Assembly (NCBI RefSeq): GCF_037975245.1
Contig: NC_092563.1
Span: forward strand, 27,551,960 to 27,615,959
DNA length: 64,000 bases
Direction: 5' to 3'
Source of the DNA: Apostichopus japonicus
Taxonomy: Eukaryota; Echinodermata; Holothuroidea; Aspidochirotida; Stichopodidae
Both the position numbers and the translations under genes were made by a program. The notes below the pieces were generated by a model. The model saw only the letters and a list, made by a program, of their open reading frames with translations, was not told the DNA's origin and ran no database searches. Numbering within the stretch: position 1 is the first letter of the stretch; the number at the start of each line of letters is the position of its first letter. Positions 16,037 through 52,823 of this stretch are shown in pieces.

Positions 16037-16230
16037 GCCTCATTGAAGGTAGCAGCCACTAAGAGCAGACACTAACAGCAGCCACTAAGAAAAAAGGACA
16101 GTAAGACATGACACACAGTACTACAACTGCGGTGCCTCATTGAAGGTAGCAGCCACTAAGAGCAGACACTAACAGCAGCCACTAAGAAAAAAGGACAGTA
16201 AGACATGACACACAGTACTACAACTGCGGT
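16037..16230 (+). repeat. Left terminal repeat, exact 97-bp tandem duplication
   Basis: Two copies that look identical, 16037-16133 and 16134-16230. Each holds three 13-bp sub-repeats (AGCAGCCACTAAG, AGCAGACACTAAC, AGCAGCCACTAAG), then a spacer ending in AACTGCGGT. The sub-repeats are plausible transposase-binding sites (inference). Confidence 0.85.
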
Positions 16231-16299
16231 CGTGTGTGTTTGTTATAACCAGTGTTACCAGCGACAGTTGACGAAAAAACGCTAGATTGGCGAAAATAA

Positions 16300-19200
16300 A
16301 ACCCCAAACGCGCTGTATATACTTAATGTGTAATGATCAGAAAAATGATTTTTTTTTCAAAATCGATTAACTTTAGTTATGGAGCCTACTAGGATGTCCG
16401 GTTAGCACCATACTAAAGTAGACAGGTTCATCTTTCACGTGGTATACCTCTACTATCGGTAACAAAAATGATTTCTTGACCAAAAGTGGCCTTAAAGTTT
16501 AAACCCCGATACGGACATCACTAAACGCGCTGTATCTAAGGTGTAATGATCTAAAAAAATGATTTTTTTTCCCTTCAAAATCGATTAACTTTAGTTATGG
16601 AGCCTACTAGGATGTCCGGTTAGCACCACATTAAAGTAGAAAGGTTCCTCTTTTACGTGGTATACCTCCACTATCGGTAACAAAAATGATTTCTTGACCG
16701 AAAATGGCCTTAAAGTTTTAACCCCGATCCGGACATCTCTAAACGCGCTGTATATACGTTATGTGTAATGATCAGAAAAATGGTTAATTTTTATTTTTTT
16801 CAAAATCGATTAACTTTAGTTATGGAGCCTACTAGGATGTCCGGTTAGCACCACATTAAAGTAGAAAGGTTCCTCTTTTACGTGGTATACCTCTACTATC
16901 GGTAACAAAAATGATTTCTTGACCAAAAGTGACCTTGAAGTTTTAACCCCGATACAGACCCTTCTCTAAACGCGCTGTATATACGTTATGTGTAATGATC
17001 AGAAAAATGGTTAATTTTTATTTTTTTCAAAATCGATTTACTTTAGTTATGGAGCCTACTAGGATGTCCGGTTAGCACCACATTAAAGTAGACAGGTTCC
17101 TCTTTCACGTGGTATACCTCTACTATCGGTAACAAAAATGATTTCTTGACCAAAAGTGACCTTGAAGTTTTAACCCCGATACAGACCCTTCTCTAAACGC
17201 GCTGTATATACGTTATGTGTAATGATCAGAAAAATGGTTAATTTTATTTTTTTCAAAATCGATTAACTTTAGTTATGGAGCCTACTAGGATGTCCGGTTA
17301 GCACCACATTAAAGTAGACAGGTTCATCTTTTACGTGGTATACCTCTACTATCGGTAACAAAAATGATTTCTTGACCGAAAATGGCCTTAAAGTTTTAAC
17401 CCCGATCCGGACATCTCTAAACGCGCTGTATATACGTTATGTGTAATGATCAGAAAAATGGTTAATTTTTATTTTTTTCAAAATCGATTTACTTTAGTTA
17501 TGGAGCCTACTAGGATGTCCGGTTAGCACCACATTAAAGTAGACAGGTTCCTCTTTCACGTGGTATACCTCTACTATCGGTAACAAAAATGATTTCTTGA
17601 CCAAAAGTGACCTTGAAGTTTTAACCCCGATACAGACCCTTCTCTAAACGCGCTGTTTATACGTAATGTGTAATGATCAGAAAAATGGTTAATTTTATTT
17701 TTTTCAAAATCGATTAACTTTAGTTATGGAGCCTACTAGGATGTCCGGTTAGCACCACATTAAAGTAGACAGGTTCATCTTTTACGTGGTATTCCTCTAC
17801 TATCGGTAACAAAAATGATTTCTTGACCGAAAATGGCCTTAAAGTTTTAACCCCGATCCGGACATCTCTAAACGCGCTGTATATACGTTATGTGTAATGA
17901 TCAGAAAAATGGTTAATTTTTATTTTTTCAAAATCGATTAACTTTAGTTATGGAGCCTACTAGGATGTCCGGTTAGCACCATATTAAAGTAGAAAGGTTC
18001 CTCTTTTACGTGGTATACCTCCACTATCGGTAACAAAAATGATTTCTTGACCAAAAGTGACCTTGAAGTTTTAACCCCGATACAGACCCTTCTCTAAACG
18101 CGCTGTATATACGTTATGTGTAATGATCAGAAAAATGGTTAATTTTTATTTTTTTCAAAATCGATTTACTTTAGTTATGGAGCCTACTAGGATGTCCGGT
18201 TAGCACCACATTAAAGTAGACAGGTTTCTCTTTCACGTGGTATACCTCTACTATCGGTAACAAAAATGATTTCTTGACCAAAAGTGACCTTGAAGTTTTA
18301 ACCCCGATACAGACCCTTCTCTAAACGCGCTGTATATACGTTATGTGTAATGATCAGAAAAATGGTTAATTTTTATTTTTTCAAAATCGATTAACTTTAG
18401 TTATGGAGCCTACTGGCATGTCCGGTTAGCACCACATTAAAGTAGACAGGTTCATCTTTCACGTGGTATACCTCTACTATCGGTAACAAAAATGATTTCT
18501 TGACCAAAAATGGCCTTAAAGTTTTAACCCCGATACGGACCACTCTCTAAACGCGCTGTATATACGTAGTGTGTAATGATCAGAAAAATGGTTAATTTTT
18601 ATTTTTTCAAAATCGATTAACTTTAGTTATGGAGCCTACTGGCATGTCCGAATAGGACCACATTAAAGTAGAAAGGTTCCTCTCTCACGTGGTATACCTC
18701 TACTATCGGTAACAAAAATGATTTCTTGACCAAAAATGGCCTTAAAGTTTTAACTCCGATACGGACCACTCTCTAAACGCGCTGTATATACGTTATGTGT
18801 AATGATCAGAATTTCTTTTTTCTCTTCAAAATCGTTTAACTTTAGTTATGGAGCCTACTAGGATGTCCGAATAGGACCACATTAAAGTAGAAAGGTTCCT
18901 CTCTCACATGGTATACCTCTTCTATCGGTAACAAAAATGATTTCTTGACCAAAAATGACCTAAAAGTTTTAACTCCGATACGGACCACTCTCTAAACGCG
19001 CTGTATATACGTTATGTGTAATGATCAGAATTTCTTTTTTTTCTTCAAAATCGTTTAACTTTAGTTATGGAGCCTACTAGGATGTCCGAATAGGACCACA
19101 TTAAAGTAGAAAGGTTCCTCTCTCACATGGTATACCTCTTCTATCGGTAACAAAAATGATTTCTTGACCAAAAATGACCTTAAAGTTTTAACTCCGATAC

Positions 19201-19465
19201 GGACCACTCTCTAAACGCGCTGTATATACGTTATGTGTAATGATCAGAATTTCTTTTTTTTCTTCAAAATCGTTTAACTTTAGTTATGGAGCCTACTAGG
19301 ATGTCCGAATAGGACCACATTAAAGTGGAAAGGTTCCTCTTTCACGTGGTATTCCTCTACTATCGGTAACAAAAATGATTTCTTGACCAAAAGTGGCCTT
19401 AAAGTTTTAACCCTGATACGGACATCTCTAAACGCGCTGTATATACGTTATGTGTAATGATCCAA
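16300..19465 (-). repeat. Satellite array 1, unit A (~225-bp monomer, ~14 copies)
   Basis: Tandem monomers marked by CTAAACGCGCTGTATATACG, TAATGATCAGAAAAATGG, TATGGAGCCTACTAGGATGT and CTATCGGTAACAAAAATGAT, spaced 216-228 bp. Orientation is opposite to array 2. The three or four monomers nearest the core (18800-19450) form a diverged subgroup (AATAGGACCAC in place of GTTAGCACCAC). Confidence 0.95.
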
Positions 19466-20875
19466 AAAATGATTAATTCCTGTGTGGGCAATTGGGCCTT
19501 TGAGGTTGCTGCATGGGTCCCGTTACAGTTAAAATATGAAGTCGTTGGTATTTTTGGATACCGCAATGTCCAATAGGGCCAACACCTCTAAACGAATTAT
19601 CCTGCTTTTTGTTAACATAATCAAATCACGTGTGGGCCATGGGCCCTTTAGGCCATGGTAGAGGATAAATTTGTAGTCATAGGTTTTTCTTTTTTTAATA
19701 CCCGACAACCTTATGGTCCAGCGCCAATAAAAAGAAATCATACTGCTCTCTTTTCACATGATTAAATCATGTGTGGGCCACGGGCCCTTTCTGGCTGCTG
19801 TATGGGTCCTGGTACATCATAAAGTTGTTGTTATTAGTATTTTTGGATACCCCAATTTCCAAAGGGTCCAATGCCACTTTAAGAATCACCCTGCTCTCAT
19901 TTCACATAAATGAATCATATGTGGGCCACAGGCCTTTTTTGGTTGCTGCCTGCATGGGCCCATGTACATCATAAAGTTGCTGTAATTAGTATTTTGGGAC
20001 ACCCCAATGTTTAACTGGTGTACCGCAAAATGAATTATCCTTGTCTCTTTTCGCATGATTAATACCATTTTGATGGGCCCTTCTGCAGGGCCCGTCACAA
20101 GGTACAATTACTTTCATTGCTATGGTTCTAAAAGTATCTTACTTTGAGTTTTATCCAGCGCTTTTGCCTTGCGTCTTTCACATGATTAAATCAACATTTG
20201 AGCCCCCTATTTTAATTGAAGGCACATTTAGACTACATACACGCACATTGTGTGGCACGGCAGCAACACATAACCTTGAATCCTGGTCATAAACGGACAT
20301 AAGCTGCCCATTAAACCCTCTGTCTCTTTTCAAATCTTCTGGGTTCCCGGTCCAGTTGAGTATCGAATCGATGCAGACTGGGTTGAAAGTAAACGCGGGC
20401 CAAGTGCAGTGCAATGCAATAAACTAGGCTCACATCACTGCAAGATGCGAGCCATCATAATGACGTCACAGGTCGATTTACTGCAAATTTATCCTCTACC
20501 ATGGCCCAGACAACCTCAAGGGCCCATGGCCCACGCGTGATTTGATTATGTGCAAAGACACAAGGATTATTCTATAGTTGCATTGGACCCTTTATACATT
20601 GGAGAAACCAAAAAATACCATCTACGACTTTTATCTGTACCGGGCCCCAGGCAACAGCCATAAAGTGCCCATGGCCCACACATGATTTGATTATGTTAAC
20701 AAAATCAGGATAATTCTTTTAGAGGTGTTGGCCCTATTGGACATTGCGGTATCTAAAAATACCAACGACTTCATTTTTAACTGTAACGGGGCCCATGCAG
20801 CAACCTCAAAGGCCCAATTGCCCACACAGGAATTAATCATTTTTTGGATCATTACACATAACGTATATATATGTT
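19466..20875. repeat. Inverted-repeat core with ~145-170 bp GGGCC-rich repeats, unit A
   Basis: The left arm (19453-19650: ATGATTAATTCCTGTGTGGG, CAATTGGGCCTTTGAGG, TTTTTGGATACCGCAATGTC) returns as reverse complement at 20690-20875. Between them, imperfect tandem units repeat a GTGTGGGCCACGGGCCC-like motif at 19625, 19771 and 19917 and inverted near 20520 and 20670. Satellite-1 sequence touches both outer ends, so the core looks inserted into, or used as the flip point of, the satellite. No coding function seen. Confidence 0.8.
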
Positions 20876-21259
20876 GAATTTGACATGTTGATAGACGTAA
20901 TGACATATTGGTATTTTGTCTCGATATGTTCATATGGAATTGTAACATGTTGATATCGAATTGGACATATATATTAACTTGGACACTCCACTTTCTTTTT
21001 CGACATTTATGGAACGTTTGGCTCTCCGTACTCTTCGACTGTCTTTGTGTTATGTTTTCACTTAGTTTTGTATGATCTGATCATCTGATCACTGTATCGT
21101 CTCTGTATTCCAATCAAGTCTTGGTAATAAACAGAAAGTAATTCATCAATTCTTTTCATGTTGCGATCACTCAGCTGATTAGATTTAAGAACTTTCATTC
21201 TCGATTCAGCATGACCAATTGTTCGTGGTACCGAAACTTTACGAACGTTTCTGGTAATA

Positions 21260-21470
21260 TGTAATAGATTAACTAAACGACTGGCAAATATTCTATACTC
21301 TATAAGGTCACTTTTATGTATATACTCCATAAGATATATCTACCCCGAGGTCACCTTTGTCATTCAGTTATACACGAACCATCGAATAGAAGAGAAGTAT
21401 AATCTCACCTACGCGTATTGAATGTGTTTTATTATTTTGTCTCACCCTGTACTGAAGCGGGATCACGACA
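21260..21470 (+). repeat. 5' LTR
   Basis: 211 bp, begins TGTAATAGATTAAC and ends GGGATCACGACA. By eye identical to the 3' LTR. The leader AAAAGTGGCGACGAGGAT that follows includes the presumed primer-binding region. Confidence 0.95.
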
Positions 21471-21542
21471 AAAAGTGGCGACGAGGATTAATTTTCTACA
21501 GGAAATATTTTTCTTCAACTTATACATCTTTCATTATTAATT

Positions 21543-23816
21543 ATGGCTTTATTTGGGAAGCTAGAGGAGTTTCGCGAAGGAAGGGAAGAATGGATCCAAT
21601 ATGTTGAGCGCCTTGAACATTTCTTCGCAGCTAACAGTATTGCGGATGAAGCAAAGAAACGTTCCATCTTTCTCAGTATTGTGGGACCCGATTCCTATAA
21701 ATTGTTAAGGAATTTAGTTTCCCCGGAAAAACCAGGTGAAAAAACATTCACAGAGTTGGTTGAAATTATGACCAAACACCAAAGCCCCGCTCCATCGGAG
21801 ACAGTTCAACGTTGTAAGTTCAACAGCCGATTTCGAAAATCCGGTGAGTCAATCGCTACCTTCGTTTCTGAACTGAAGTCGTTATCAGAATTCTGTAATT
21901 ATGGTAACACTCTTAATGATATGCTTAGAGACCGATTGGTTTGTGGGATTAACGATGATAGAATCCAACGTAATTTGTTGGCTCAACCTAAACTCACATT
22001 TGCTAAAGCATTAGAAATAGCCACTAGCCAAGAAACGGCAGCCCGGAACGCGCAACACCTGAAGGAGGCCTTTCAACAGCCCCTGGCGACACCTCTGACC
22101 CAAGAGTCGGTCATGCACATCCCTAAAGGTCACAAAGGTCAGAAAGTTACCTCGCAGTCCGAGAAATATCGCAATCGAAAGGAGTGGTCGTCAAAACAAA
22201 AGTGTTATCGCTGTGGAAACAATAATCACGAGCAGAAGGATTGCTGGTTCAAAGATAAGGACTGTCATAATTGTGGAAAGAGAGGACATATTGCCAAAGT
22301 TTGTAGGAGTAAGATATCTAAGGTGAAGCAGGTCAATGAAGACACTGGACAAGCTAACGATAAATTATTTGATCTGTTCAACGTAAATGACGGTAGAGCA
22401 CCATTAGCGGTGGACATAAAGATTGATGGACAGAGTGTAAGGATGGAAGTGGATACAGGAGCTTCTATGTCGATTGTTTCAGAGGAAACTTTCAAGGCTA
22501 ATTGGCCAAACAAAAAGTGGCACAAAACAGATATTATTCTTCGGACGTATACCGGAGCCACGGTAGAAATTTTAGGTGAAACTGAAGTGACCGTCGAATA
22601 TCAGCGACAAAAATGCAAGTTGCGGTTAATCGTTATTCGTGGTGAGGGAGCAAGTCTTCTTGGTCGCGACTGGCTTCAGAAAATTCGGCTTGACTGGAAT
22701 AGTTTCTACGTCAATAACGTGACCAGGGAACGACTGTCAGATTTGCTGAACGCCCATAGTGAAATTGAAAAGTTAGTGAAAGAATGCCCGGTCTGTCAAG
22801 AAAGCAGACCTAATCCCCCTAAAGCACCATTACATTCATGGCCACAACCCAATCGACCATGGTCCCGAATTCATATAGATTTTGCTGGACCGTTCATGGG
22901 ACACATGTTGTTGGTTATAGTTGATGCTTACTCAAAATGGATCGAAGTTCATGTAATGAATAACTCAACTACCAAATCCACCATACAAAATTTGCGTAAA
23001 ACTTTTTCACAATTGGGAGTACCTGAAATGATAGTTAGTGATAATGGATCATGTTTCACAAGCTCAGAGTTTAAAACGTTTTGTGAAATGAATGGCATTC
23101 GACATGTAACTACTGCCCCATATCACCCGGCATCAAATGGACTGGCTGAACGAGCAGTCCAAACTGTCAAACAAGGGGTAAAGAGAATGAGAGATGGAAA
23201 CTTACAGGACAAAGTCTCACGATTTCTCTTCAAATACAGAATAACCCCTCAAACCACGACAGGAGAATCTCCGTCACAATTGTTAATGGGTCGCTCCTTA
23301 CGTTCTCGTATGGACCTGATCCACCCAGATTTATATCAGAGAGTTCAAGCAAAACAGGAACAGCAAAAGAGGCAACATGACAAGTCGAGTGTCAATCGAT
23401 CATTTGAGTTAGGTGACAAAGTTTTTGCTAAGAACTTTGCGATCAGAGGTCAAAAGTGGCTTATTGGTCACATCGTTGAAAAGACTGGACCGATTTCATT
23501 TAAGGTTAAGTTAGAAAACGGTAACGTGGTAAGACGACATCAAGATCAGATTAGGAAATGCCATTTGAGTAACTCAGTTAATCCATTACCACCTAAGGAC
23601 ACCAACATTCAGCCGCCTTCAATCATAGAGATTGATGCCAATGATTTGCCCGTAGCAGATAATTCTGATTCTGACACAGAACCACCTCAAGCAGTTGGTG
23701 ATGTTGCCGAAGCCTATGACGTTGAGTCACATGCTTCAGACGTACCTGATTTAGATAATACACCTAAGTCATACCCAAAGCGTAATCGCAAAAGGCCTGA
23801 TTATTACCGGCCTTAA
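21543..23816 (+). CDS. Gag-protease-integrase polyprotein of LTR element, RT/RNase H deleted in frame
   Basis: 757 codons from ATG 21543. Residues ~1-200 are a retrotransposon Gag domain. Two CCHC zinc knuckles follow (~residues 222-260: CYRCGNNNHEQKDC and CHNCGKRGHIAKVC). The aspartic protease has active site VDTGAS at ~302 and the C-terminal LLGRDWL at ~376. The frame then passes within about 20 residues into the end of the integrase zinc-finger region (CPVC; the two His positions are lost). The integrase core keeps the catalytic triad: D in HIDFAGP, D in VSDNGS, E in SNGLAERAVQ. A GPY/F-like module (GPISFKVKL) and an acidic tail follow. A full-length relative would hold about 600 further residues of RT and RNase H between protease and integrase (family knowledge). 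The frame has no stop or frameshift, so the deletion product itself has been maintained or is very recent. Confidence 0.95.
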   Translation: MALFGKLEEFREGREEWIQYVERLEHFFAANSIADEAKKRSIFLSIVGPDSYKLLRNLVSPEKPGEKTFTELVEIMTKHQSPAPSETVQRCKFNSRFRKSGESIATFVSELKSLSEFCNYGNTLNDMLRDRLVCGINDDRIQRNLLAQPKLTFAKALEIATSQETAARNAQHLKEAFQQPLATPLTQESVMHIPKGHKGQKVTSQSEKYRNRKEWSSKQKCYRCGNNNHEQKDCWFKDKDCHNCGKRGHIAKVCRSKISKVKQVNEDTGQANDKLFDLFNVNDGRAPLAVDIKIDGQSVRMEVDTGASMSIVSEETFKANWPNKKWHKTDIILRTYTGATVEILGETEVTVEYQRQKCKLRLIVIRGEGASLLGRDWLQKIRLDWNSFYVNNVTRERLSDLLNAHSEIEKLVKECPVCQESRPNPPKAPLHSWPQPNRPWSRIHIDFAGPFMGHMLLVIVDAYSKWIEVHVMNNSTTKSTIQNLRKTFSQLGVPEMIVSDNGSCFTSSEFKTFCEMNGIRHVTTAPYHPASNGLAERAVQTVKQGVKRMRDGNLQDKVSRFLFKYRITPQTTTGESPSQLLMGRSLRSRMDLIHPDLYQRVQAKQEQQKRQHDKSSVNRSFELGDKVFAKNFAIRGQKWLIGHIVEKTGPISFKVKLENGNVVRRHQDQIRKCHLSNSVNPLPPKDTNIQPPSIIEIDANDLPVADNSDSDTEPPQAVGDVAEAYDVESHASDVPDLDNTPKSYPKRNRKRPDYYRP

Positions 23817-23893
23817 TTATTGTAAATGAAATGTATATACTCATCTATAACCTTGCCACAGATAATTTCAAAACGAGAAACTTAATGTTCTAA

Positions 23894-23908
23894 TTAAGAG
23901 GGGAGGAG
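23894..23908 (+). other. Polypurine tract
   Basis: AAGAGGGGAGGAG directly before the 3' LTR, the usual plus-strand primer position. Confidence 0.8.
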
Positions 23909-24119
23909 TGTAATAGATTAACTAAACGACTGGCAAATATTCTATACTCTATAAGGTCACTTTTATGTATATACTCCATAAGATATATCTACCCCGAGGT
24001 CACCTTTGTCATTCAGTTATACACGAACCATCGAATAGAAGAGAAGTATAATCTCACCTACGCGTATTGAATGTGTTTTATTATTTTGTCTCACCCTGTA
24101 CTGAAGCGGGATCACGACA
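23909..24119 (+). repeat. 3' LTR
   Basis: 211 bp, preceded by the purine tract AAGAGGGGAGGAG and followed by TAATA. Identity to the 5' LTR implies recent insertion. Confidence 0.95.
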
Positions 24120-24277
24120 TAATACTATTTATATCCACATCTATATTTATATGTCGGTTCAAGTCACCGAGAAGTAACCCAGACCAAAAAGCAGATGACG
24201 GTAATAAAACAGTATCCAATTCTTTCATAAGTACTGGAGAGTAAAATAGATTGGGATCATACATTTGTTCTTGTATT

Positions 24278-25282
24278 CACTGGCGGATCCAAGGGGGGGC
24301 CAAGGGGGGCCATGCCCCCCCCCCCCAAAGGTGAGCAAAAAAGTGTTTCCGAACATCCGCTAAATCGTATGATTGGAAATTTAAAAAATCGAGAGGAATA
24401 GCAGTGGTAGACTAGTCTAAACCTTTTTGTTTTCTGGTTTAAAATTAAATGCAGAGCTCCCAACTGACCCGCGATTCGCGGGAATTAGACCCGCAGTCTA
24501 ACACCCAAACCCGCTGACCCGCACAAGCGTGCGAAAAAACCGCATTGTAATTGTCAAGTATACATAAAAAAATTTGCATCGAATTTTGACTTAGCAACCA
24601 TCATTTCTTTAGCATTTAGCATAATAGAGTATAAAACCTCCTTTACAGCATCATTTGAACCTTTGAATTGGGGCGAGCAGCGAACATTTTCATGCCACGG
24701 GAAAGAATGAATTATCACCTACTATTCAATTTATTGATGTTACACAAAAAAAAATGCATATTTCTCAGAAAATTTTGGGTGACAAAAGCCTTTCTAAGTG
24801 CCACCATTTTACATGTAGGCATCACCAGGATTCCAAAAAAATTCAATAGGGGAGGGGGACACCCCCTCCCCTTATACCCCTCCCCCAGGACGGCGATTCG
24901 TGGCATGGACCAGCATTTGCCTTCTCAAGAGTTGGGAGCTATGTAAATGTATGAGCATGAGGATTTACAGTTTAACACCATTTTGCAGTTACAGGCTGGT
25001 TGTAAGAAATTTATAACCTATGAGAAATAAAATTTCTTGAGAAAGATGATCCCAACTTTCTTTTATAAATATTTTAGAAAATTACACCTGGGAAACATTT
25101 TTTTTAGAAGTAAATTAACATCACCATTGTACACTTTTGTCGCACCAAATTGCATCTGAGGGCATTCAGCAATAGAAAATTTTCCAAAGGGGAGGGGGCA
25201 CCCCATCCCCTTAGACCCCTCCCCCATATCACTCTAATGCCACTTTGGCCCCTCCCAAACAGAGGCCCTGGATCCGCCAGTG
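24278..25282. mobile_element. hAT-type MITE, ~1.0 kb, unit A
   Basis: TIR CACTGGCGGATCC with matching end GGATCCGCCAGTG and 8-bp target duplication CTTGTATT (24270-24277, 25283-25290). Subterminal G/C runs (GGGGGGGCC, CCCCTCCC). No transposase frame. It interrupts the transposase-like exon of the host element and hosts a nested MITE at 24452-24943. Confidence 0.9.
24452..24943. mobile_element. MITE nested inside the hAT MITE, unit A
   Basis: Left terminus CAGAGCTCCCAACT, right terminus AGTTGGGAGCTATG (inverted, one mismatch), flanked by TAAATG (24446-24451, 24944-24949), a 6-bp duplication. Just inside lies the small hairpin ACCCGCGATTCGCGGG. No coding frame assigned; class uncertain. Confidence 0.7.
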
Positions 25283-25290
25283 CTTGTATT

Positions 25291-25803
25291 TGATATGCTA
25301 CTGGATGTAACTAAGTGTGAATATAGGGTTTGTCATGTCTCATAGAGAGTCTGTTTAACTTATAAGACGTTTTATTGTTGTGATAATATTACAAATTATA
25401 CTTTTACAAAGAGGTAATGAGAAGAGAGATTAATATCGTCAGTCATTCTTTAGAACCTCAAGATCATACTGCAGGATGATTCGTACTAGTTAACAAAAGT
25501 ATCCGATCGTGTGTTAAATGTACAATGTATTCCACACAGACTTCATGTTGGTTATATGTGGTCTTATGGTACGATGTGAAGATTTTCTTGTCATGCCTCA
25601 AAAAGGTAAATGACTAACTTCTTTTGAAAGAGAATACAGTACGACAAAAAGTTATCAATTTTATTTGATTACATATTTTGTCTATATAGTCTGATATTTC
25701 GGTACAGGTGGAGCACAGAAGTAGATTTGATACAAACAGTAGCTATGGAGCACAAATATTCAGTTTGTTCCGACAAGAAGGACAAAATCATAATTAAATC
25801 TAA
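25291..25803. other. Single-copy spacer of the unit (unit A)
   Basis: AT-rich segment between the hAT MITE and satellite array 2. The minus strand may hold the intron upstream of the transposase-like exon (acceptor CACACTTAG near 25310). No other coding signal seen. Confidence 0.5.
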
Positions 25804-28800
25804 TCAAGAAATCAGTTTTGTTAGGGGTCTGTATCGGGGTTAAAATTTTAAGGCCATTTTTGGTCAAGAAATCATTTTTGTTACCGATAGTAGAGGTATA
25901 TCACGTGAAAGATGAACCTGTCTACTTTAATGTGGTGCTAACCAGACATGCCAGTAGGCTCCATAACTAAAGTTAATCGATTTTGAAGGGGAAAAAAATT
26001 TGGGATCATTACATGTTACGTATATACAGTGCTTTTAGAGATGTCCGTATCGGGTTTAAAACTTTGAGGCCATTTTTGGTCAAGAAATCATTTTTGTTAC
26101 CGATAATAGAGATATACCACGTAAAAGAGGAACCTTTCTACTTTAATGTGGTACTAACCGGGCATCCTAGTAGGCTCCATAACTAAAGTTAATCGATTTT
26201 GAAAAAAATAAAAATTATAAATTTATCTGATCATTACACATAACGTATATACTGCGCGCTTAGAGATGTCCGTATCGGGGTTAAAACTTTAAGGCCATTT
26301 TTGGTCAAGAAATCATTTTTGTTACCGATAGTAGAGGTATACCACGTGAAAGAGGAACCTTTCTACTTTAATGTGGTGCTAACCGGACATCCTAGTAGGC
26401 TCCATAACTAAAGTTAATCGATTTTGAAAAAAAATTAAATTAACCATTTTTCTGATCATTACACACTACGTATATACAGCGCGTTTAGAGATGTCCGTAT
26501 CGGGGTTAAAACTTTAAGGCCATTTTTGGTCAAGAAATCATTTTTGTTACCGATAATAGAGGTATATCACGTGAAAGATGAACCTGTCTACTTTAATGTG
26601 ATGCTAACCGGACATGTCAGTAGGCTCCATAACTAAAGTTAATCGATTTTGAAAAAAATAAAAATTAACCATTTTTCTTATCATTAAACACTACGTATAT
26701 ACAGCGCGTTTAGAGATGTCCGTATCGGGGTTAAAACTTTAAGGCCATTTTTGGTCAAGAAATCATTTTTGTTACCGATAATAGAGGTATATCACGTGAA
26801 AGATGAACCTGTCTACTTTAATGTGGTGCTAACCGGACATCCTAGTAGGCTCCATAACTAAAGTTAATCGATTTTGAAAAAAATTTAAATTAACCATTTT
26901 TCTGATCATTACACACTACGTATATACAGCGCGTTTAGAGATGTCCGTATCGGGGTTAAAACTTTAAGGCCATTTTGGGTCAAGAAATCATTTTTGTTAC
27001 CGATAGTAGAGGTATATCACGTGAAAGATGAACCTGTCTACTTTAATGTGGTGCTAACCGGACATGCCAGTAGGCTCCATAACTAAAGTTAATCGATTTT
27101 GAAAAAATAAAAATTAACCATTTTTCTGATCATTACACACTTCGTATATACAGCGCGTTTAGAGATGTCCGTATCGGGGTTAAAACTTTAAGGGAATTTT
27201 TGGTCAAGAAATCATTTTTGTTACTGATAGTAGAGGTATACCACGTGAAAGAGGAACCTTTTTACTTTAATTTGGTCTTTTTCGGACATCCTAGTAGGCT
27301 CCATAACTAAAGTTAATCGATTTTGGAAAAAAAACAATCATTTTTTGGATCATTACACATTAGATATACAGCGCGTTTAGAGATGTCCGTATCGGGGTTA
27401 AAACTTTAAGGCCATTTTTGGTCAAGAAATCATTTTTGTTACCGATAATAGAGGTATATCACGTGAAAGATGAACCTGTCTACTTTAATGTGGTGCTAAC
27501 CGGACATGCCAGTAGGCTCCATAACTAAAGTTAATCGATTTTGGAAAAAAATAAAAATTATAAATTTATCTGATCATTACAAGTAACGTATATACAGCGC
27601 GTTTAGAGATGTCCGTATCGGGGTTAAAACTTTAAGGGAATTTTTGGTCAAAAAATAATTTTTGTTACTGATAGTAGAGGTATACCACGTGAAAGAGGAA
27701 CCTTTTTACTTTAATTTGGTCTTTTTCGGACATCCTAGTAGGCTCCATAACTAAAGTTAATCGATTTTGGAAAAAAAACAATCATTTTTTGGATCATTAC
27801 ACATTAGATATACAGCGCGTTTAGAGATGTCCGTATCGGGGTTAAAACTTTAAGGCCATTTTTGGTCAAGAAATCATTTTTGTTACCGATAGTAGAGGTA
27901 TACCACGTAAAAGAGGAACCTTTCTACTTTAATGTGGTGCTAACCGGACATGCCAGTAGGCTCCATAACTAAAGTAAATCGATTTTGAAAAAAATAAAAA
28001 TTAACCATTTTTCTGATCATTACACATAACGTATATACTGCGCGTTTAGAGAAGGGTCTGTATCGGGGTTAAAACTTTAAGGCCATTTTTGGTCAAGAAA
28101 TCATTTTTGTTACCGATAGTAGAGGTATACCACGTAAAAGAGGAACCTTTCTACTTTAATGTGGTGCTAACCGGACATGCCAGTAGGCTCCATAACTAAA
28201 GTTAATCGATTTTGAAAAAATAAAAATTAACCATTTTCTGATCATTACACATAACGTATATACTGCGCGTTTAGAGATGTCCGTATCGGGGTTAAAACTT
28301 TAAGGCCATTTTTGGTCAAGAAATCATTTTTGTTACCGATAGTAGAGGTATACCACGTAAAAGAGGAACCTTTCTACTTTAATGTGGTGCTAACCGGACA
28401 TGCCAGTAGGCTCCATAACTAAAGTTAATCGATTTTGAAAAAATAAAAATTAACCATTTTTCTTATAATTACATGTTACGTATATACAGCGCGTTTAGAG
28501 ATGTCCGTATCGGGGTTAAAACTTTAAGGCCATTTTTGGTCAAGAAATCATTTTTGTTACCGATAGTAGAGGTATACCACGTGAAAGATGAACCTGTCTA
28601 CTTTAATGTGGTGCTAACCGGACATGCCAGTAGGCTCCATAACTAAAGTTAATCGATTTTGAAAAAATAAAAATTAACCATTTTCTGATCATTACACATT
28701 ACGTATATACAGCGCGTTTAGAGATGTCCGTATCGGGGTTAAAACTTTAAGGGAATTTTTGGTCAAGAAATCATTTTTGTTACCGATAGTAGAGGTATAC

Positions 28801-42159: not shown

Positions 42160-42672
42160 TGATATGCTACTGGATGTAACTAAGTGTGAATATAGGGTTT
42201 GTCATGTCTCATAGAGAGTCTGTTTAACTTATAAGACGTTTTATTGTTGTGATAATATTACAAATTATACTTTTACAAAGAGGTAATGAGAAGAGAGATT
42301 AATATCGTCAGTCATTCTTTAGAACCTCAAGATCATACTGCAGGATGATTCGTACTAGTTAACAAAAGTATCCGATCGTGTGTTAAATGTACAATGTATT
42401 CCACACAGACTTCATGTTGGTTATATGTGGTCTTATGGTACGATGTGAAGATTTTCTTGTCATGCCTCAAAAAGGTAAATGACTAACTTCTTTTGAAAGA
42501 GAATACAGTACGACAAAAAGTTATCAATTTTATTTGATTACATATTTTGTCTATATAGTCTGATATTTCGGTACAGGTGGAGCACAGAAGTAGATTTGAT
42601 ACAAACAGTAGCTATGGAGCACAAATATTCAGTTTGTTCCGACAAGAAGGACAAAATCATAATTAAATCTAA
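42160..42672. other. Single-copy spacer of the unit (unit B)
   Basis: Copy of 25291-25803. Confidence 0.5.
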
Positions 42673-45600
42673 TCAAGAAATCAGTTTTGTTAGGGGTCTG
42701 TATCGGGGTTAAAATTTTAAGGCCATTTTTGGTCAAGAAATCATTTTTGTTACCGATAGTAGAGGTATATCACGTGAAAGATGAACCTGTCTACTTTAAT
42801 GTGGTGCTAACCAGACATGCCAGTAGGCTCCATAACTAAAGTTAATCGATTTTGAAGGGGAAAAAAATTTGGGATCATTACATGTTACGTATATACAGTG
42901 CTTTTAGAGATGTCCGTATCGGGTTTAAAACTTTGAGGCCATTTTTGGTCAAGAAATCATTTTTGTTACCGATAATAGAGATATACCACGTAAAAGAGGA
43001 ACCTTTCTACTTTAATGTGGTACTAACCGGGCATCCTAGTAGGCTCCATAACTAAAGTTAATCGATTTTGAAAAAAATAAAAATTATAAATTTATCTGAT
43101 CATTACACATAACGTATATACTGCGCGCTTAGAGATGTCCGTATCGGGGTTAAAACTTTAAGGCCATTTTTGGTCAAGAAATCATTTTTGTTACCGATAG
43201 TAGAGGTATACCACGTGAAAGAGGAACCTTTCTACTTTAATGTGGTGCTAACCGGACATCCTAGTAGGCTCCATAACTAAAGTTAATCGATTTTGAAAAA
43301 AAATTAAATTAACCATTTTTCTGATCATTACACACTACGTATATACAGCGCGTTTAGAGATGTCCGTATCGGGGTTAAAACTTTAAGGCCATTTTTGGTC
43401 AAGAAATCATTTTTGTTACCGATAATAGAGGTATATCACGTGAAAGATGAACCTGTCTACTTTAATGTGATGCTAACCGGACATGTCAGTAGGCTCCATA
43501 ACTAAAGTTAATCGATTTTGAAAAAAATAAAAATTAACCATTTTTCTTATCATTAAACACTACGTATATACAGCGCGTTTAGAGATGTCCGTATCGGGGT
43601 TAAAACTTTAAGGCCATTTTTGGTCAAGAAATCATTTTTGTTACCGATAATAGAGGTATATCACGTGAAAGATGAACCTGTCTACTTTAATGTGGTGCTA
43701 ACCGGACATCCTAGTAGGCTCCATAACTAAAGTTAATCGATTTTGAAAAAAATTTAAATTAACCATTTTTCTGATCATTACACACTACGTATATACAGCG
43801 CGTTTAGAGATGTCCGTATCGGGGTTAAAACTTTAAGGCCATTTTGGGTCAAGAAATCATTTTTGTTACCGATAGTAGAGGTATATCACGTGAAAGATGA
43901 ACCTGTCTACTTTAATGTGGTGCTAACCGGACATGCCAGTAGGCTCCATAACTAAAGTTAATCGATTTTGAAAAAATAAAAATTAACCATTTTTCTGATC
44001 ATTACACACTTCGTATATACAGCGCGTTTAGAGATGTCCGTATCGGGGTTAAAACTTTAAGGGAATTTTTGGTCAAGAAATCATTTTTGTTACTGATAGT
44101 AGAGGTATACCACGTGAAAGAGGAACCTTTTTACTTTAATTTGGTCTTTTTCGGACATCCTAGTAGGCTCCATAACTAAAGTTAATCGATTTTGGAAAAA
44201 AAACAATCATTTTTTGGATCATTACACATTAGATATACAGCGCGTTTAGAGATGTCCGTATCGGGGTTAAAACTTTAAGGCCATTTTTGGTCAAGAAATC
44301 ATTTTTGTTACCGATAATAGAGGTATATCACGTGAAAGATGAACCTGTCTACTTTAATGTGGTGCTAACCGGACATGCCAGTAGGCTCCATAACTAAAGT
44401 TAATCGATTTTGGAAAAAAATAAAAATTATAAATTTATCTGATCATTACAAGTAACGTATATACAGCGCGTTTAGAGATGTCCGTATCGGGGTTAAAACT
44501 TTAAGGGAATTTTTGGTCAAAAAATAATTTTTGTTACTGATAGTAGAGGTATACCACGTGAAAGAGGAACCTTTTTACTTTAATTTGGTCTTTTTCGGAC
44601 ATCCTAGTAGGCTCCATAACTAAAGTTAATCGATTTTGGAAAAAAAACAATCATTTTTTGGATCATTACACATTAGATATACAGCGCGTTTAGAGATGTC
44701 CGTATCGGGGTTAAAACTTTAAGGCCATTTTTGGTCAAGAAATCATTTTTGTTACCGATAGTAGAGGTATACCACGTAAAAGAGGAACCTTTCTACTTTA
44801 ATGTGGTGCTAACCGGACATGCCAGTAGGCTCCATAACTAAAGTAAATCGATTTTGAAAAAAATAAAAATTAACCATTTTTCTGATCATTACACATAACG
44901 TATATACTGCGCGTTTAGAGAAGGGTCTGTATCGGGGTTAAAACTTTAAGGCCATTTTTGGTCAAGAAATCATTTTTGTTACCGATAGTAGAGGTATACC
45001 ACGTAAAAGAGGAACCTTTCTACTTTAATGTGGTGCTAACCGGACATGCCAGTAGGCTCCATAACTAAAGTTAATCGATTTTGAAAAAATAAAAATTAAC
45101 CATTTTCTGATCATTACACATAACGTATATACTGCGCGTTTAGAGATGTCCGTATCGGGGTTAAAACTTTAAGGCCATTTTTGGTCAAGAAATCATTTTT
45201 GTTACCGATAGTAGAGGTATACCACGTAAAAGAGGAACCTTTCTACTTTAATGTGGTGCTAACCGGACATGCCAGTAGGCTCCATAACTAAAGTTAATCG
45301 ATTTTGAAAAAATAAAAATTAACCATTTTTCTTATAATTACATGTTACGTATATACAGCGCGTTTAGAGATGTCCGTATCGGGGTTAAAACTTTAAGGCC
45401 ATTTTTGGTCAAGAAATCATTTTTGTTACCGATAGTAGAGGTATACCACGTGAAAGATGAACCTGTCTACTTTAATGTGGTGCTAACCGGACATGCCAGT
45501 AGGCTCCATAACTAAAGTTAATCGATTTTGAAAAAATAAAAATTAACCATTTTCTGATCATTACACATTACGTATATACAGCGCGTTTAGAGATGTCCGT

Positions 45601-48600
45601 ATCGGGGTTAAAACTTTAAGGGAATTTTTGGTCAAGAAATCATTTTTGTTACCGATAGTAGAGGTATACCACGTAAAAGAGGAACCTTTCTACTTTAATG
45701 TGGTGCTAACCGGACATCCTAGTAGGCTCCATAACTAAAGTTAATCGATTTTGAAAAAAATAAAATTAACCATTTTTCTGATCATTACACATAACGTATA
45801 TACTGCGCGTTTAGAGAAGGGTCTGTATCGGGGTTAAAACTTCAAGGTCACTTTTGGTCAAGAAATCATTTTTGTTACCGATAGTAGAGGTATACCACGT
45901 AAAAGAGGAACCTTTCTACTTTAATGTGGTGCTAACCGGACATGCCAGTAGGCTCCATAACTAAAGTTAATCGATTTTGAAAAAATAAAAATGAACCATT
46001 TTCTGATCATTACACATTACGTATATACAGCGCGTTTAGAGATGTCCGTATCGGGGTTAAAACTTTAAGGCCATTTTTGGTCAAGAAATCATTTTTGTTA
46101 CCGATAGTAGAGGTATACCACGTAAAAGAGGAACCTTTCTACTTTAATGTGGTGCTAACCGGACATGCCAGTAGGCTCCATAACTAAAGTTAATCGATTT
46201 TGAAAAAATAAAAATTAACCATTTTTCTTATAATTACATGTTACGTATATACAGCGCGTTTAGAGATGTCCGTATCGGGGTTAAAACTTTAAGGCCATTT
46301 TTGGTCAAGAAATCATTTTTGTTACCGATAGTAGAGGTATACCACGTGAAAGATGAACCTGTCTACTTTAATGTGGTGCTAACCGGACATGCCAGTAGGC
46401 TCCATAACTAAAGTTAATCGATTTTGAAAAAAAAAAAAAATTAACCATTTTTCTGATCATTACACACTACGTATATACAGCGCGTTTAGAGATGTCCGTA
46501 TCGGGGTTAAAACTTTAAGGCCAGATTTGGTCAAGAAATCATTTTTGTTACCGATAATAGAGGTATATCACGTGAAAGATGAACCTGTCTACTTTAATGT
46601 GGTGCTAACCGGACATGCCAGTAGGCTCCATAACTAAAGTTAATCGATTTTGAAAAAAATAAAAATTAACCATTTTTCTGATCATTACACACTACGTATA
46701 TACAGCGCGTTTAGAGATGTCCGTATCGGGGTTAAACTTTAAGGCCATTTTTGGTCAAGAAATCATTTTTGTTACCGATAGTAGAGGTATATCACGTGAA
46801 AGATGAACCTGTCTACTTTAATGTGGTGCTAACCAGACATGCCAGTAGGCTCCATAACTAAAGTTAATCGATTTTGAAAAAATAAAAATTAACCATTTTT
46901 CTGATCATTACACATTACGTATATACAGCGCGTTTAGAGATGTCCGTATCGGGGTTAAAACTTTAAGGCCATTTTTGGTCAAGAAATCATTTTTGTTACC
47001 GATAGTAGAGGTATACTACGTAAAAGAGGAACCTTTCTACTTTAATGTGGTGCTAACCGGACATCCTAGTAGGCTCCATAACTAAAGTTAATCGATTTTG
47101 AAAAAAATAAAATTAACCATTTTTCTGATCATTACACATAACGTATATACAGCGCGTTTAGAGAAGGGTCTGTATCGGGGTTAAAACTTCAAGGTCACTT
47201 TTGGTCAAGAAATCATTTTTGTTACCGATAGTAGAGGTATACCACGTAAAAGAGGAACCTTTCTACTTTAATGTGGTGCTAACCGGGCATCCTAGTAGGC
47301 TCCATAACTAAAGTTAATCGATTTTGAAAAAATAAAAATTAACCATTTTTCTGATCATTACACATAACGTATATACAGCACGTTTAGAGATGTCCGTATC
47401 GGGGTTAAAACTTTAAGGCCACTTTTGGTCAAGAAATCATTTTTGTTACCGATAGTAGAGTTATATCACGTGAAAGATGAACCTGTCTACTTTAATGTGG
47501 TGCTAACCGGACATCCTAGTAGGCTCCATAACTAAAGTTAATCGATTTTGAAAAAAATAAAAATCATAAATTTTTCTGATCATTACACATAACGTATATA
47601 CAGCGCGTTTAGAGATGTCCGTATCGAGGTTAAAACTTCAAGGTCACTTTTGGTCAAAAAATCAGTTTTGTTACCGATAGTAGAGGTATACCACGTGAAA
47701 GATGAACCTGTCTACTTTAATGTGATGCTAACCGGACATGCCAGTAGGCTCCATAACTAAAGTTAATCGATTTTGAAAAAATAAAAATTAACCATTTTTC
47801 TTATCATTACACATTACGTATATACAGCGCGTTTAGAGATGTCCGTATCGGGGTTAAAACTTTAAGGCCATTTTTGGTCAAGAAATCATTTTTGTTACCG
47901 ATAGTAGAGGTATACCACGTGAAAGATGAACCTGTCTACTTTAATGTGGTGCTAACCGGACATGCCAGTAGGCTCCATAACTAAAGTTAATCGATTTTGA
48001 AAAAAATAAAAATCAGAAATTTATCTGATCATTACACATAACGTATATACAGCGCGTTTAGAGATTTCCGTATCGGGGTTAAAACTTTAAGGCCATTTTT
48101 GGTCAAGAAACCATTTTTGTTACCGATAGTAGAGGTATACCACGTGAAAGATGAACCTGTCTACTTTAATGTGGTGCTAACCGGACATGCCAGTAGGCTC
48201 CATAACTAAAGTTAATCGATTTTGAAAAAATAAAAATTAACCATTTTCTGATCATTACACATTACGTATATACAGCGCGTTTAGAGATGTCCGTATCGGG
48301 GTTAAAACTTTAAGGCCATTTTTGGTCAAGAAATCATTTTTGTTACCGATAGTAGAGGTATACCACGTAAAAGAGGAACCTTTCTACTTTAATGTGGTGC
48401 TAACCGGACATCCTAGTAGGCTCCATAACTAAAGTTAATCGATTTTGAAAAAAATAAAATTAACCATTTTTCTGATCATTACACATAACGTATATACTGC
48501 GCGTTTAGAGAAGGGTCTGTATCGGGGTTAAAACTTCAAGGTCACTTTTGGTCAAGAAATCATTTTTGTTACCGATAGTAGAGGTATACCACGTAAAAGA

Positions 48601-51600
48601 GGAACCTTTCTACTTTAATGTGGTGCTAACCGGGCATCCTAGTAGGCTCCATAACTAAAGTTAATCGATTTTGAAAAAATAAAAATTAACCATTTTTCTG
48701 ATCATTACACATAACGTATATACAGCACGTTTAGAGATGTCCGTATCGGGGTTAAAACTTTAAGGCCACTTTTGGTCAAGAAATCATTTTTGTTACCGAT
48801 AGTAGAGTTATATCACGTGAAAGATGAACCTGTCTACTTTAATGTGGTGCTAACCGGACATCCTAGTAGGCTCCATAACTAAAGTTAATCGATTTTGAAA
48901 AAAATAAAAATCATAAATTTTTCTGATCATTACACATAACGTATATACAGCGCGTTTAGAGATGTCCGTATCGAGGTTAAAACTTCAAGGTCACTTTTGG
49001 TCAAAAAATCAGTTTTGTTACCGATAGTAGAGGTATACCACGTGAAAGATGAACCTGTCTACTTTAATGTGATGCTAACCGGACATGCCAGTAGGCTCCA
49101 TAACTAAAGTTAATCGATTTTGAAAAAATAAAAATTAACCATTTTTCTTATCATTACACATTACGTATATACAGCGCGTTTAGAGATGTCCGTATCGGGG
49201 TTAAAACTTTAAGGCCATTTTTGGTCAAGAAATCATTTTTGTTACCGATAGTAGAGGTATACCACGTGAAAGATGAACCTGTCTACTTTAATGTGGTGCT
49301 AACCGGACATGCCAGTAGGCTCCATAACTAAAGTTAATCGATTTTGAAAAAAATAAAAATCAGAAATTTATCTGATCATTACACATAACGTATATACAGC
49401 GCGTTTAGAGATGTCCGTATCGGGGTTAAAACTTTAAGGCCATTTTTGGTCAAGAAACCATTTTTGTTACCGATAGTAGAGGTATACCACGTGAAAGATG
49501 AACCTGTCTACTTTAATGTGGTGCTAACCGGACATGCCAGTAGGCTCCATAACTAAAGTTAATCGATTTTGAAAAAATAAAAATTAACCATTTTCTGATC
49601 ATTACACATTACGTATATACAGCGCGTTTAGAGATGTCCGTATCGGGGTTAAAAGTTAAGGCCATTTTTGGTCAAGAAATCATTTTTGTTACCGATAGTA
49701 GAGGTATACCACGTGAAAGATGAACCTGTCTACTTTAATGTGGTGCTAACCGGACATGTCAGTAGGCTCCATAACTAAAGTTAATCGATTTTGAAAAAAA
49801 TAAAAATTAACCATTTTTCTGATCATTACACACTACGTATATACAGCGCGTTTAGAGATGTCCGTATCGGGGTTAAAACTTTAAGGCCATTTTTGGTCAA
49901 GAAATCATTTTTGTTACCGATAATAGAGGTATATCACGTGAAAGATGAACCTGTCTACTTTAATGTGGTGCTAACCGGACATGCCAGTAGGCTCCATAAC
50001 TAAAGTTAATCGATTTTGAAAAAAATTAAAATTAACCATTTTTCTGATCATTACACACTACGTATATACAGCCCGTTTAGAGATGTCCGTATCGGGGTTA
50101 AAACTTTAAGGCCACTTTTGGTCAAGAAATTATTTTTGTTACCGATAGTAGAGGTATATCACGTGAAAGATGAACCTGTCTACTTTAATGTGGTGCTAAC
50201 CGGACATGCCAGTAGGCTCCATAACTAAAGTTAATCGATTTTGAAAAAATAAAAATTAACCATTTTTCTGATCATTACACACTTCGTATATACAGCGCGT
50301 TTAGAGATGTCCGTATCGGGGTTAAAACTTTAAGGCCATTTTTGGTCAAGAAATCATTTTTGTTACCGATAATAGAGGTATATCACGTGAAAGATGAACC
50401 TGTCTACTTTAATGTGGTGCTAACCGGACATGCCAGTAGGCTCCATAACTAAAGTTAATCGATTTTGAAAAAAATTAAAATTAACCATTTTTCTGATCAT
50501 TACACACTACGTATATACAGCGCGTTTAGAGATGTCCGTATCGGGTTTAAAACTTTGAGGCCATTTTTGGTCAAGAAATCATTTTTGTTACCGATAGTAG
50601 ATGTATACCACGTGAAAGAGGAACCATTCTACTTTAATGTGGTGCTAACCGGACATGCCAGTAGAGTCCATAACTAAAGTTAATCGATTTTGAAGAGAAA
50701 AAAATCATTTTTTGGATCATTACACATTAGATATACAACGCGTTTAGAGATGTCCGTATCGGGGTTAAAACTTTAAGGCCATTTTTGGTCAAGAAATCAT
50801 TTTTGTTACCGATAGTAGAGGTATATCACGTGAAAGATGAACCTGTCTACTTTAATGTGGTGCTAACCAGACATGCCAGTAGGCTCCATAACTAAAGTTA
50901 ATCGATTTTGAAGGGGAAAAAAATTTGGGATCATTACATGTTACGTATATACAGCGCGTTTAGAGATGTCCGTATCGGGTTTAAAACTTTGAGGCCATTT
51001 TTGGTCAAGAAATCATTTTTGTTACCGACAGTAGATGTATACCACGTGAAAGAGGAACCATTCTACTTGAATGTGGTGCTAACCGGACATGCCAGTAGGC
51101 TCCATAACTAAAGTTAATCGATTTTGAAGGGAAAAAAAATCATTTTTTGGATCATTACACATTAGATATACAACGCGTTTAGAGATGTCCGTATCGGGGT
51201 TAAAACTTTAAGGCCACTTTTGGTCAAGAAATCATTTTTGTTACCGATAGTAGAGGTACATCACGTGAAACATGAACCTTTCTACATTAATGTGGTCCTA
51301 TTCGGACATCCTAGTAGGCTCCATAACTAAAGTTAATCGATTTTGACAAAATAAAAATTAACCATTTTTCTTATCATTACACATTACGTATATACAGCCC
51401 GTTTAGAGATGTCCGTATCGGGGTTAAAACTTTAAGGCCAATTTTGGTCAAGAAATTATTTTTGTTACCGATAGTAGAGGTATATCACGTGAAAGATGAA
51501 CCTGTCTACTTTAATGTGGTGCTAACCGGACATGCCAGTAGGCTCCATAACTAAAGTTAATCGATTTTGAAAAAATAAAAATTAACCATTTTTCTGATCA

Positions 51601-52214
51601 TTACACACACAGCGCGTTTAGAAATGTCCGTATCGGGGTTAAAACTTTAAGGGAATTTTTGGTCAAGAAATCATTTTTGTTACTGATAGTAGAGGTATAC
51701 CACGTGAAAGAGGAACCTTTTTACTTTAATTTGGTCTTTTTCGGACATCCTAGTAGGCTCCATAACTAAAGTTAATCGATTTTGGAAAAAAAACAATCAT
51801 TTTTTGGATCATTACACATTAGATATACAGCGCGTTTAGAAATGTCCGTATCGGGGTTAAAACTTTAAGGCCACTTTTGGTCAAGAAATCATTTTTGTTA
51901 CCGATAGTAGAGGTATACCACGTGAAAGAGGAACCTGTCTACATTAATGTGGTGCTAACCAGACATGCCAGTAGGCTCCATAACTAAAATTAATTGATTT
52001 TGAAGAAGAAGAAAAAAATATCAATATTTTAAAACGTTTAGGCCACTTTTGGTCAAAAAAATCGGTTTTGTTACCCATAGTAGGTATTACACGTGAAAGA
52101 AGAAATTGTTTTCTTTGATTTGATGCTAACCGGACCTCCTAACTAGGTCGATAACTCAAATTAACCGATTTTGAAATAATAATACGTTTGGATCATAACA
52201 CATTACCGCGCGTT
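42673..52214 (+). repeat. Satellite array 2, unit B
   Basis: Same as 25804-35345 at offset 16,869, with the same order of variant monomers. Confidence 0.95.
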
Positions 52215-52775
52215 TCGAGCTAATTTTCCCATTTGCATCCCACTCCTGTTAGGATCGAACGGTTTGTAGCCATCGAATTTCAATAAATCAAAGTGTTACT
52301 GGCTGTTTTTTCATACCACTTGTAAGAGGAATAACTTAACATCGTCATTGTACCCCTCTTGACTGTTGCATATTCTCATAAATTAATTGTTTAGACATTT
52401 GAAAAAAAAAGAAAAAAAATGGTATAAAAATTGCCGCCATTTACGCCTTTCTCCACAAGATTTGGTAGGATCACAAGTTTCAGTTCAATATGGATGCAGA
52501 TTTCGTCCACCATTAAATTCCAAAATTATATTACATGAAAGAGCAACAACTCATCTCTCATATGGTGCAATTATTGGCATTTTACAGTATTCATAGCGTT
52601 AATTATTATCGCTTTAAAACAGGTACGAAAAAGTAGCAGTCTTGTTATTGTCCGCTAATTTAGGCTGCCCTTAGTGGCTGCTGGGGATCAACTTTCCCGC
52701 CACAGCGTACCCAGCGCTCGTCACAGTGTACAAACATCAGTGGCCAACGGCGTGTAACGTTGATGTATACACTAT
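52215..52775. other. Subterminal single-copy segment, unit B
   Basis: Copy of 35346-35906, including the 69-codon frame at 52387-52596. Confidence 0.5.
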
Positions 52776-52823
52776 TGGCTGCTGTTAGTGGCTGCTCTTA
52801 GTGGCTGCTACGTTCAAACAGGT
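52776..52823 (-). repeat. Right terminal repeat of unit B, outer end
   Basis: Looks identical to 35907-35954. Inverted relative to the left terminal repeat at 16037, and followed by the target duplication. Confidence 0.85.

Follow-up and report, generated by a model that had tools for sequence, protein, structure and literature searches.

The systems nearest to the element reported here are Tetris and Tm1; what is said of published systems throughout refers to the passages drawn on from each cited paper. Tetris, from Drosophila virilis, is a non-autonomous foldback element that carries tandem repeats of ~220 bp in inverted arms and is flanked by target-site duplications (TSDs) of 8-10 bp (PMC4079207). 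Its arms measure at most 1,735 bp, and three structurally complete copies are described; longer arrays, with as many as 66 repeats, are described as satellites that originated within Tetris and may have disrupted it (PMC4079207). Tm1 is a Mutator/Foldback family of root-knot nematodes, assigned to the Phantom subclass (PMC3169594). The structure that we describe lies in a stretch of 64,000 nucleotides from Apostichopus japonicus (contig NC_092563.1, positions 27,551,960 to 27,615,959; hereafter ‘the window’), in which a first-pass annotation had seen a giant transposon of 36.8 kb with terminal inverted repeats (TIRs), built from opposed satellite arrays. We consider it very probable that the structure belongs to a non-autonomous foldback TIR transposon family in which opposed arrays of a ~225-bp satellite form the arms and which is mobilised in trans, most likely by a Mutator-type transposase, and that the window holds a dimer of a ~17-kb unit.

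The 36.8-kb structure runs from base 16037 to base 52823, both limits being exact. It is flanked on the forward strand by a perfect duplication of 9 bp, ATAAACAGA, at 16028-16036 on the left and at 52824-52832 on the right; the length had been given as ‘9-10’ bp because the next base, G, also matches on both sides. The left terminus opens with GCCTCATTGAAGGTAGCAGCC (at 16037) and the right terminus closes with ...TTCAAACAGGT (at 52823), and each end carries three GCAGCCACTAA-like units of ~11 bp, with a spacing of 13 bp and at offsets 15, 28 and 41. The first 97 bp on the left are tandemly doubled (16037-16133 and 16134-16230), the outer of the two being an extra forward-strand copy of the left terminus, GCCTCATTGAAGGTAGCAGCC... 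with its three 13-bp sub-repeats. Between the ends, the sequence is mostly a single ~225-bp satellite in two opposite orientations. Termini with three sub-repeats, flanking duplication and satellite interior are thus as the first-pass annotation described them. The inverted terminal homology proper is short (~45 bp, 93%), and it is the satellite arrays that make up the long inverted arms; across 3.2 kb the opposed 225-bp arrays are ~90-93% complementary, that is, they form the long inverted arms with tandem repeats that characterise foldback elements. Allowing up to three mismatches, the terminus pattern has four matches in the window, all of them exact, against 0.07 expected; two of the four expose the doubled left terminus and a right end inside the structure. 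A search of the window against Rfam gave no match.

A search of the 671.6-Mb host assembly gave 144 exact matches to the terminus pattern and none to a reversed-pattern control; 87 are right-type, 54 left-type and three other. The ends of the family are asymmetric, opening with GCCTCATTGAAGG... on the left and, read inward, with ACCTGTTTGAACG... on the right, each followed by three 13-bp sub-repeats, the terminal sub-repeats of the family being GTAGCAGCC sub-repeats. Adjacent ends face each other within 60 kb in 42 pairs, 41 of which were examined (the pair at C19:2820314-2825639 was omitted, and the window was represented by its outer pair). With the element taken from its terminal G or A, the TSD is a perfect 9 bp at 29 of the 41 pairs, matches at 8 of 9 bases at three, and at 7 or fewer at nine; among pairs of at least 10 kb, 19 of 21 have a perfect 9-bp TSD. 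As a control, the left and right duplications of different elements were compared across the 26 elements fetched whole, and only 2 of 650 such comparisons gave a match. The free-standing satellite with ends that arose by chance is ruled out by the terminus counts (144 versus 0) together with the TSD statistics. We conclude that the element is a member of a multi-copy family, characterised by ends that are fixed and asymmetric and by 9-bp target duplications. The genome search for the termini that the first-pass annotation had proposed therefore turns up further loci that share the ends, the 9-bp duplications beside them and the satellite interior, so that second loci with the same ends and a duplication are not lacking. 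Nor does satellite continue past the termini: in the ~500-bp flanks of the 26 whole-fetched elements it was found only at C1:18623200, where two elements abut. A flank at C12:22654200 contains a 53-bp stretch of left-end sequence, which is not satellite. At C1:18623750-18640191 (L015, L016), two elements lie 8 bp apart in locally repeated host sequence, the first with 8 of 9 duplication bases and the second with none.

Both of the matches in the cross-pair control stem from two oppositely oriented elements that share an insertion point in a host repeat, and a third element is inserted 2 bp from that point. These three insertions look independent, because the similarity of their flanks is 79-94% and both orientations of the element are represented. 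The host repeat belongs to a family with many copies, 90-100% alike over ~400 bp (for example C16:40586135-40586534), and is a recurrent target. Uninterrupted sites were found in a whole-genome search, and none among the family DNA already fetched. When the flanks of a 16.4-kb element at C1:17915658 were joined, with one duplication removed, they matched 40 uninterrupted places (40 of 140 candidates were scored), the best four of which cover all 400 bases with a score equal to one mismatch, i.e. 399/400. These places are paralogous copies of the host repeat in the same assembly rather than the same site in other individuals, and they display the element-free state of the site, in which the 9 bp occur once.

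The first-pass annotation had taken the 36.8 kb as one giant unit, and in this it does not stand: the structure is a dimer, in which two copies of a ~17-kb element follow each other head to tail. A complete right end is also present inside the structure, ending at 35954, and the sequence from 35955 to 52823 repeats copy 1 except for the initial 88 bp of its left end, with near-identity over 16.87 kb. The two copies are free of differences over 5,038 bp, up to the point at which a long terminal repeat (LTR) retroelement is inserted in copy 1, and beyond that point 11,837 aligned bp show 0 mismatches and one 1-bp gap. Where they align, the copies differ by this gap and by the 2.86-kb Ty3-type LTR insertion, copy 2 being an exact empty site for the insertion.

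In forward-strand order, copy 1 consists of the 173-bp left end domain (16134-16306), whose identity is 96.6-99.4% among those fetched elements in which it is complete; the left satellite array, 14.2 units of ~225 bp (16306-19478); a 1352-bp hinge module with inverted ends of ~172 bp at 95-96%, at which the orientation of the satellite reverses (19479-20830); 39 bp of reversed satellite with a ~2.09-kb non-satellite module, split by the LTR element (20831-25824); the right satellite array, 41 full monomers on the reverse strand (25825-35310); and the 644-bp right end domain, complete to its terminal T (35311-35954), which is the internal terminus that had been overlooked. Copy 2 begins with a truncated left end, whose first base corresponds to base 89 of the full domain and abuts the terminal T of copy 1 (35955-36038), and continues with the left satellite array (36039-39211), the 1352-bp hinge (39212-40563), 39 bp of reversed satellite with the ~2.09-kb module and the exact LTR empty site (40564-42693), the right satellite array, again on the reverse strand (42694-52179), and the 644-bp right end domain, ending ...TTCAAACAGGT (52180-52823). 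At the junction, base 89 of the left end follows directly on the terminal T of the right end, and homology at the join is not visible.

One ATAAACAGA duplication brackets the pair as a whole. Its position at the outermost ends is what a single giant 36.8-kb transposon, mobile in one piece together with both satellite pairs, would leave behind, and a dimer transposed as a unit would do likewise; however, the same duplication is also accounted for by tandem duplication after insertion. Apart from the window, 12 whole-fetched elements measure at least 10 kb, and each of these is a single unit; no second dimer of this type was found among the 24 other loci fetched whole. We regard a single 36.8-kb unit as highly improbable, and reject it on the internal right terminus at 35954 and the second copy, nearly identical to the first over 16.87 kb. 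The first-pass annotation was therefore right about the kind of structure, a mobile element with satellite arms, and wrong about the unit; a giant element called from its outer ends alone can be a tandem dimer.

The small number of differences between the copies, one LTR insertion and one 1-bp gap, would also be expected if the dimer were an assembly error, in which haplotypes with and without the LTR element, or an extrachromosomal circle, had been merged into one contig. HiFi reads averaging 14.7 kb, near the length of the repeat, are described for an A. japonicus assembly (PMC10344927), and would favour such an error if the assembly is the same. Yet the join hits the exact terminal base of the right end and the left end minus 88 bp, for which a haplotype mis-join gives no reason, and the features that distinguish the copies lie 5 and 12 kb from the junction, within the span of reads of such length. 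On balance we think an assembly error unlikely. A true dimer would have formed in three steps, namely insertion of one ~17-kb element, tandem duplication, and insertion of the LTR element in copy 1; the order with the LTR insertion last is the simplest, since near-identical copies differ by one clean insertion. Because the join consists of the exact terminal base of the right end and a left end trimmed by 88 bp, without visible homology, we propose that a transposase-cut right end may have been joined to the resected left end of a sister copy.

Structurally complete copies among the fetched elements share a common plan: a 173-bp left end, satellite in plus orientation, the hinge block, satellite in minus orientation and a 644-bp right end. 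We classify the element as a foldback because a hinge with inverted ends sits where the orientation of the satellite reverses. Among the fetched elements, the shortest arms measure a few hundred bases and the longest 13.6 kb, and copies of 2.3-4.5 kb with perfect TSDs also exist. The ~2.1-kb non-satellite module lies beside the hinge in 12 elements, including the window; one large copy (C1:18623750) has the hinge and lacks the module, and another (C2:25661713) keeps ~420 bp of the module and has no hinge. Sequence conservation is high, with full-length cores of nine other elements 97.8-99.2% identical to the core in the window (two damaged copies are lower), and the right-end domain 95-100% identical at the 40 places scored out of 102 candidates, two of which are the window's own. 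A short derivative at C14:27135500-27138000 (L040) has a right-type end on both sides and no TSD. Its host flanks are inverted and match at 93%, forming a larger palindrome, perhaps from aberrant transposition.

The hinge and core block is oriented one way in nine elements and the other way in three, the window and two others. On a tree of the cores, this distribution takes three changes of orientation, two of them forced by supported branches, and the supported sister of the window has the opposite orientation. Flipping of the hinge by recombination between the opposed arms would be the natural cause.

An end pair of 57.4 kb at C7:5618163-5675584 (loci L079-L098) also has a perfect 9-bp duplication. 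Of 20 sample points of 60 bp, eight match satellite or hinge and 12 match no family module; nine of these 12, spanning ~22 kb, look by eye like one different tandem repeat, and the first ~21 kb of the pair samples as family satellite and hinge. With at least ~22 kb of the pair sampling as another kind of tandem repeat, 57.4 kb does not stand as a size record for this satellite. The locus may hold one satellite-bearing stretch nested within another.

To describe the arms we compared 684 of the 739 full monomers, leaving out those of copy 2 in the window. Mean same-arm divergence between monomers is 6.2% within an element and 7.4% between elements. Inside an arm of the large elements, monomers average 4-8% divergence, whereas full cores of different copies diverge by ~1-2%; in elements of at least 10 kb, an arm comprises from 3 to 19 lineages of monomers when a 3% cut is applied. 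A collinear run of six successive monomers at the outer left, 0.9% diverged, is common to the window and C11:19173650, its closest relative by core sequence. At a 2.5% cut there are four same-arm runs, all between these two elements, compared with 0-1 in each of 20 replicates in which monomer order was shuffled. Because monomers differ by ~6% within an arm and cores by only ~1-2%, the arrays are likely to have arrived with the element as multi-monomer arrays, unless the satellite mutates much faster than the core.

Local amplification is clear nonetheless, since 365 of the 684 monomers have their nearest relative solely in their own array, and higher-order runs are also present; together with the short copies of 2.3-4.5 kb that have perfect TSDs, this is what would be seen if short elements had inserted and the satellite had expanded in place afterwards, in which case the TSD would mark a small element and there would be no bulk transposition of satellite. 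Arms begun after insertion from one or two monomers would be expected to be nearly uniform. The 4-8% divergence within arms, set against ~1-2% between full cores, disfavours growth from so few monomers, and the collinear run of six monomers common to the window and C11:19173650 also argues against expansion in place, to which we give little credence. We conclude that the arrays were probably carried in, and that they appear from the monomer comparison to have been changed afterwards by local exchange.

In a genome search for the satellite, which scored 19 of 206 candidate regions and took the best of 511 matches, the places found form 13 loci, 11 of them inside an end pair and two no more than 8 kb from a lone exact right end. 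A tentative and rather doubtful extension of our account is that the satellite arms have a function within the transposon instead of being cargo: the arrays would bring the ends together, by pairing, cruciform formation or the binding of multiple proteins, transposition would select for a long, inverted, self-homogenising satellite, the satellite of this genome would consist mainly of transposon arms, and recombination between arms would flip the hinge.

With regard to the superfamily, the perfect 9-bp TSDs at 29 of 41 pairs agree both with foldback elements (8-10 bp) and with Mutator elements (~9 bp), and the asymmetric terminal motifs together with the 13-bp tandem motif fit the Phantom subclass, in which, as in Tm1, asymmetric motifs go with a tandem motif of ~14 bp. 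The middle of the element is variable and, apart from the LTR frame, no frame above 189 aa is present in the 26 fetched elements, as in foldback elements with a variable middle that lacks transposase. Membership in the Mutator superfamily (MULE/Phantom-like; MULE, Mutator-like element) is probable. The Mutator-like comparison made in the first-pass annotation is consistent with TSD length and with the composite, asymmetric ends, but no transposase with these ends was found. Assignment to Mutator is by inference only, because no MULE match falls within a facing pair.

Three other groups of elements do not fit. Helitrons and Helentrons have rolling-circle ends with no TIR and no TSD, and are ruled out by the inverted ends and 9-bp TSDs. 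Polinton/Maverick elements make 6-bp TSDs and carry polymerase and integrase genes, as opposed to 9-bp TSDs and, besides the LTR insert, no long frames in the fetched elements. TSDs of the P superfamily, to which Galileo belongs, are 7-8 bp, as against 9 bp here. Merlin elements duplicate 8-9 bp, and TSD length by itself is not decisive; since neither the PF10551 search nor the reading frames of the fetched elements revealed an autonomous partner, it is conceivable, though rather unlikely, that the mobilising enzyme is another one that makes 8-9-bp duplications, Merlin-like or from an undescribed family. However, MULE domains do occur in this genome, and the asymmetric motifs, the ~13-bp sub-repeats and the 9-bp TSDs match those of the Phantom-type MULE family Tm1 (PMC3169594).

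Taken together, our reading is that a transposase supplied in trans, most likely of Mutator type (MULE/Phantom-like), would bind the sub-repeats, that the unit would move by cut-and-paste with its satellite arms included, that the arms would shrink, grow and homogenise through unequal exchange, and that recombination between opposed arms would flip the hinge. A number of observations do not sit easily with this reading. Nine of the 41 pairs have no good TSD, seven of them under 3.2 kb and the others of 5.8 and 10.2 kb. No transposase gene was seen in the 26 fetched elements, in which frames besides the LTR frame reach at most 189 aa and the Pfam scan covered only the LTR frame. The MULE domain PF10551 has 38 matches in the genome, none in a facing pair and the nearest 155 kb from an exact end, in a comparison that did not extend to diverged ends. 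The dimer is known from one genome assembly. A check for flanking satellite that had been swapped along with a flipped hinge gave no clear signal, and no collinear runs of monomers were found between opposite arms. Finally, monomers at the same position in different elements are barely more similar than those at other positions, the outer left excepted, because of which we take the arrays to be much rearranged.

The LTR retroelement in copy 1 is a Ty3-type insertion of 2.86 kb on the forward strand (21260-24119), with 211-bp LTRs that have 0 differences and a TSD of TAATA. Its single frame, of 774 aa, has matches to a zinc knuckle, a protease and an integrase, and no match to the reverse-transcriptase family; the element may need another element as a partner. 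Within the ~2.1-kb module, at 24280-25290 and also in copy 2, a stretch of ~1 kb is bounded by CACTGGCGGATCC and its inverse, and we take it to resemble a small hAT-type element. The window also has separate tandem arrays, of a 59-bp unit x 13 (62264-63027) and of a 75-bp unit x 4 (60197-60499).

The scattering of satellites through genomes is a long-standing problem, for which the usual explanation invokes short arrays carried by elements that are small or decayed. The family described here has spread long satellite arrays as opposed arms through an animal genome, and offers unusually direct evidence for satellite arrays moving by transposition, in the form of many cleanly bounded and closely similar copies that combine multi-kb satellite arms with defined ends, 9-bp duplications and matching uninterrupted sites, all within one assembly. 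Bulk movement by cut-and-paste, the rate at which arms grow and shrink, and the effect of the arms on transposition become testable between individuals.

No description of the satellite-armed family appeared among the literature matches listed (titles and abstract openings of open-licence papers). Among the described elements, Helitrons and Helentrons with central satellite arrays are likewise mobile elements that disperse satellite-like arrays, but they move by rolling circle and their arrays are short and central, whereas the present family has ends that are inverted, TSDs of 9 bp and a pair of opposed multi-kb arrays (PMC12628747, PMC8268682). The transposon-like TCAST elements of Tribolium share opposed satellite in the TIRs, a non-satellite spacer and target duplications; they differ in measuring at most 1,181 bp, with about one monomer per arm and a 3-bp duplication, and are placed with mariner/Tc1 (PMC3411249). 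Phantom and Rehavkus MULEs with minisatellites resemble the family in their TSDs, of 8-10 bp or 9 bp, and in their internal tandem repeats, but as described their TIRs measure 18-613 and 26-400 bp, the minisatellite lies near the transposase gene, and two opposed multi-kb arrays are not part of the structure (PMC6446971). Galileo and other long-TIR elements have long, internally repetitive inverted arms, as here, and the tandem repeats of Galileo contain extra transposase binding sites; Galileo differs in belonging to the P superfamily and in having TIRs of little over 1 kb (PMC3688188).

The likeness to Tm1 lies in the ends, with a different terminal motif at each end, a redundant motif of ~14 bp (13 bp here) and a 9-bp TSD, and extends to a same-end recombinant without TSD, whose counterpart here is C14:27135500, with the right end present twice (PMC3169594). 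Tm1 has a transposase-coding member, whereas none was found in the satellite-armed family, and long satellite arrays are not described for Tm1 in the passages covered (PMC3169594). The likeness to Tetris lies in the layout: an outer flanking domain, repeat arms, an inner domain and a variable middle, with an array number that varies between copies. Here the arms reach 13.6 kb (the two being compared by description, not by sequence), up to about eight times longer than in the complete Tetris copies, and 19 pairs of at least 10 kb retain both ends and a perfect TSD.

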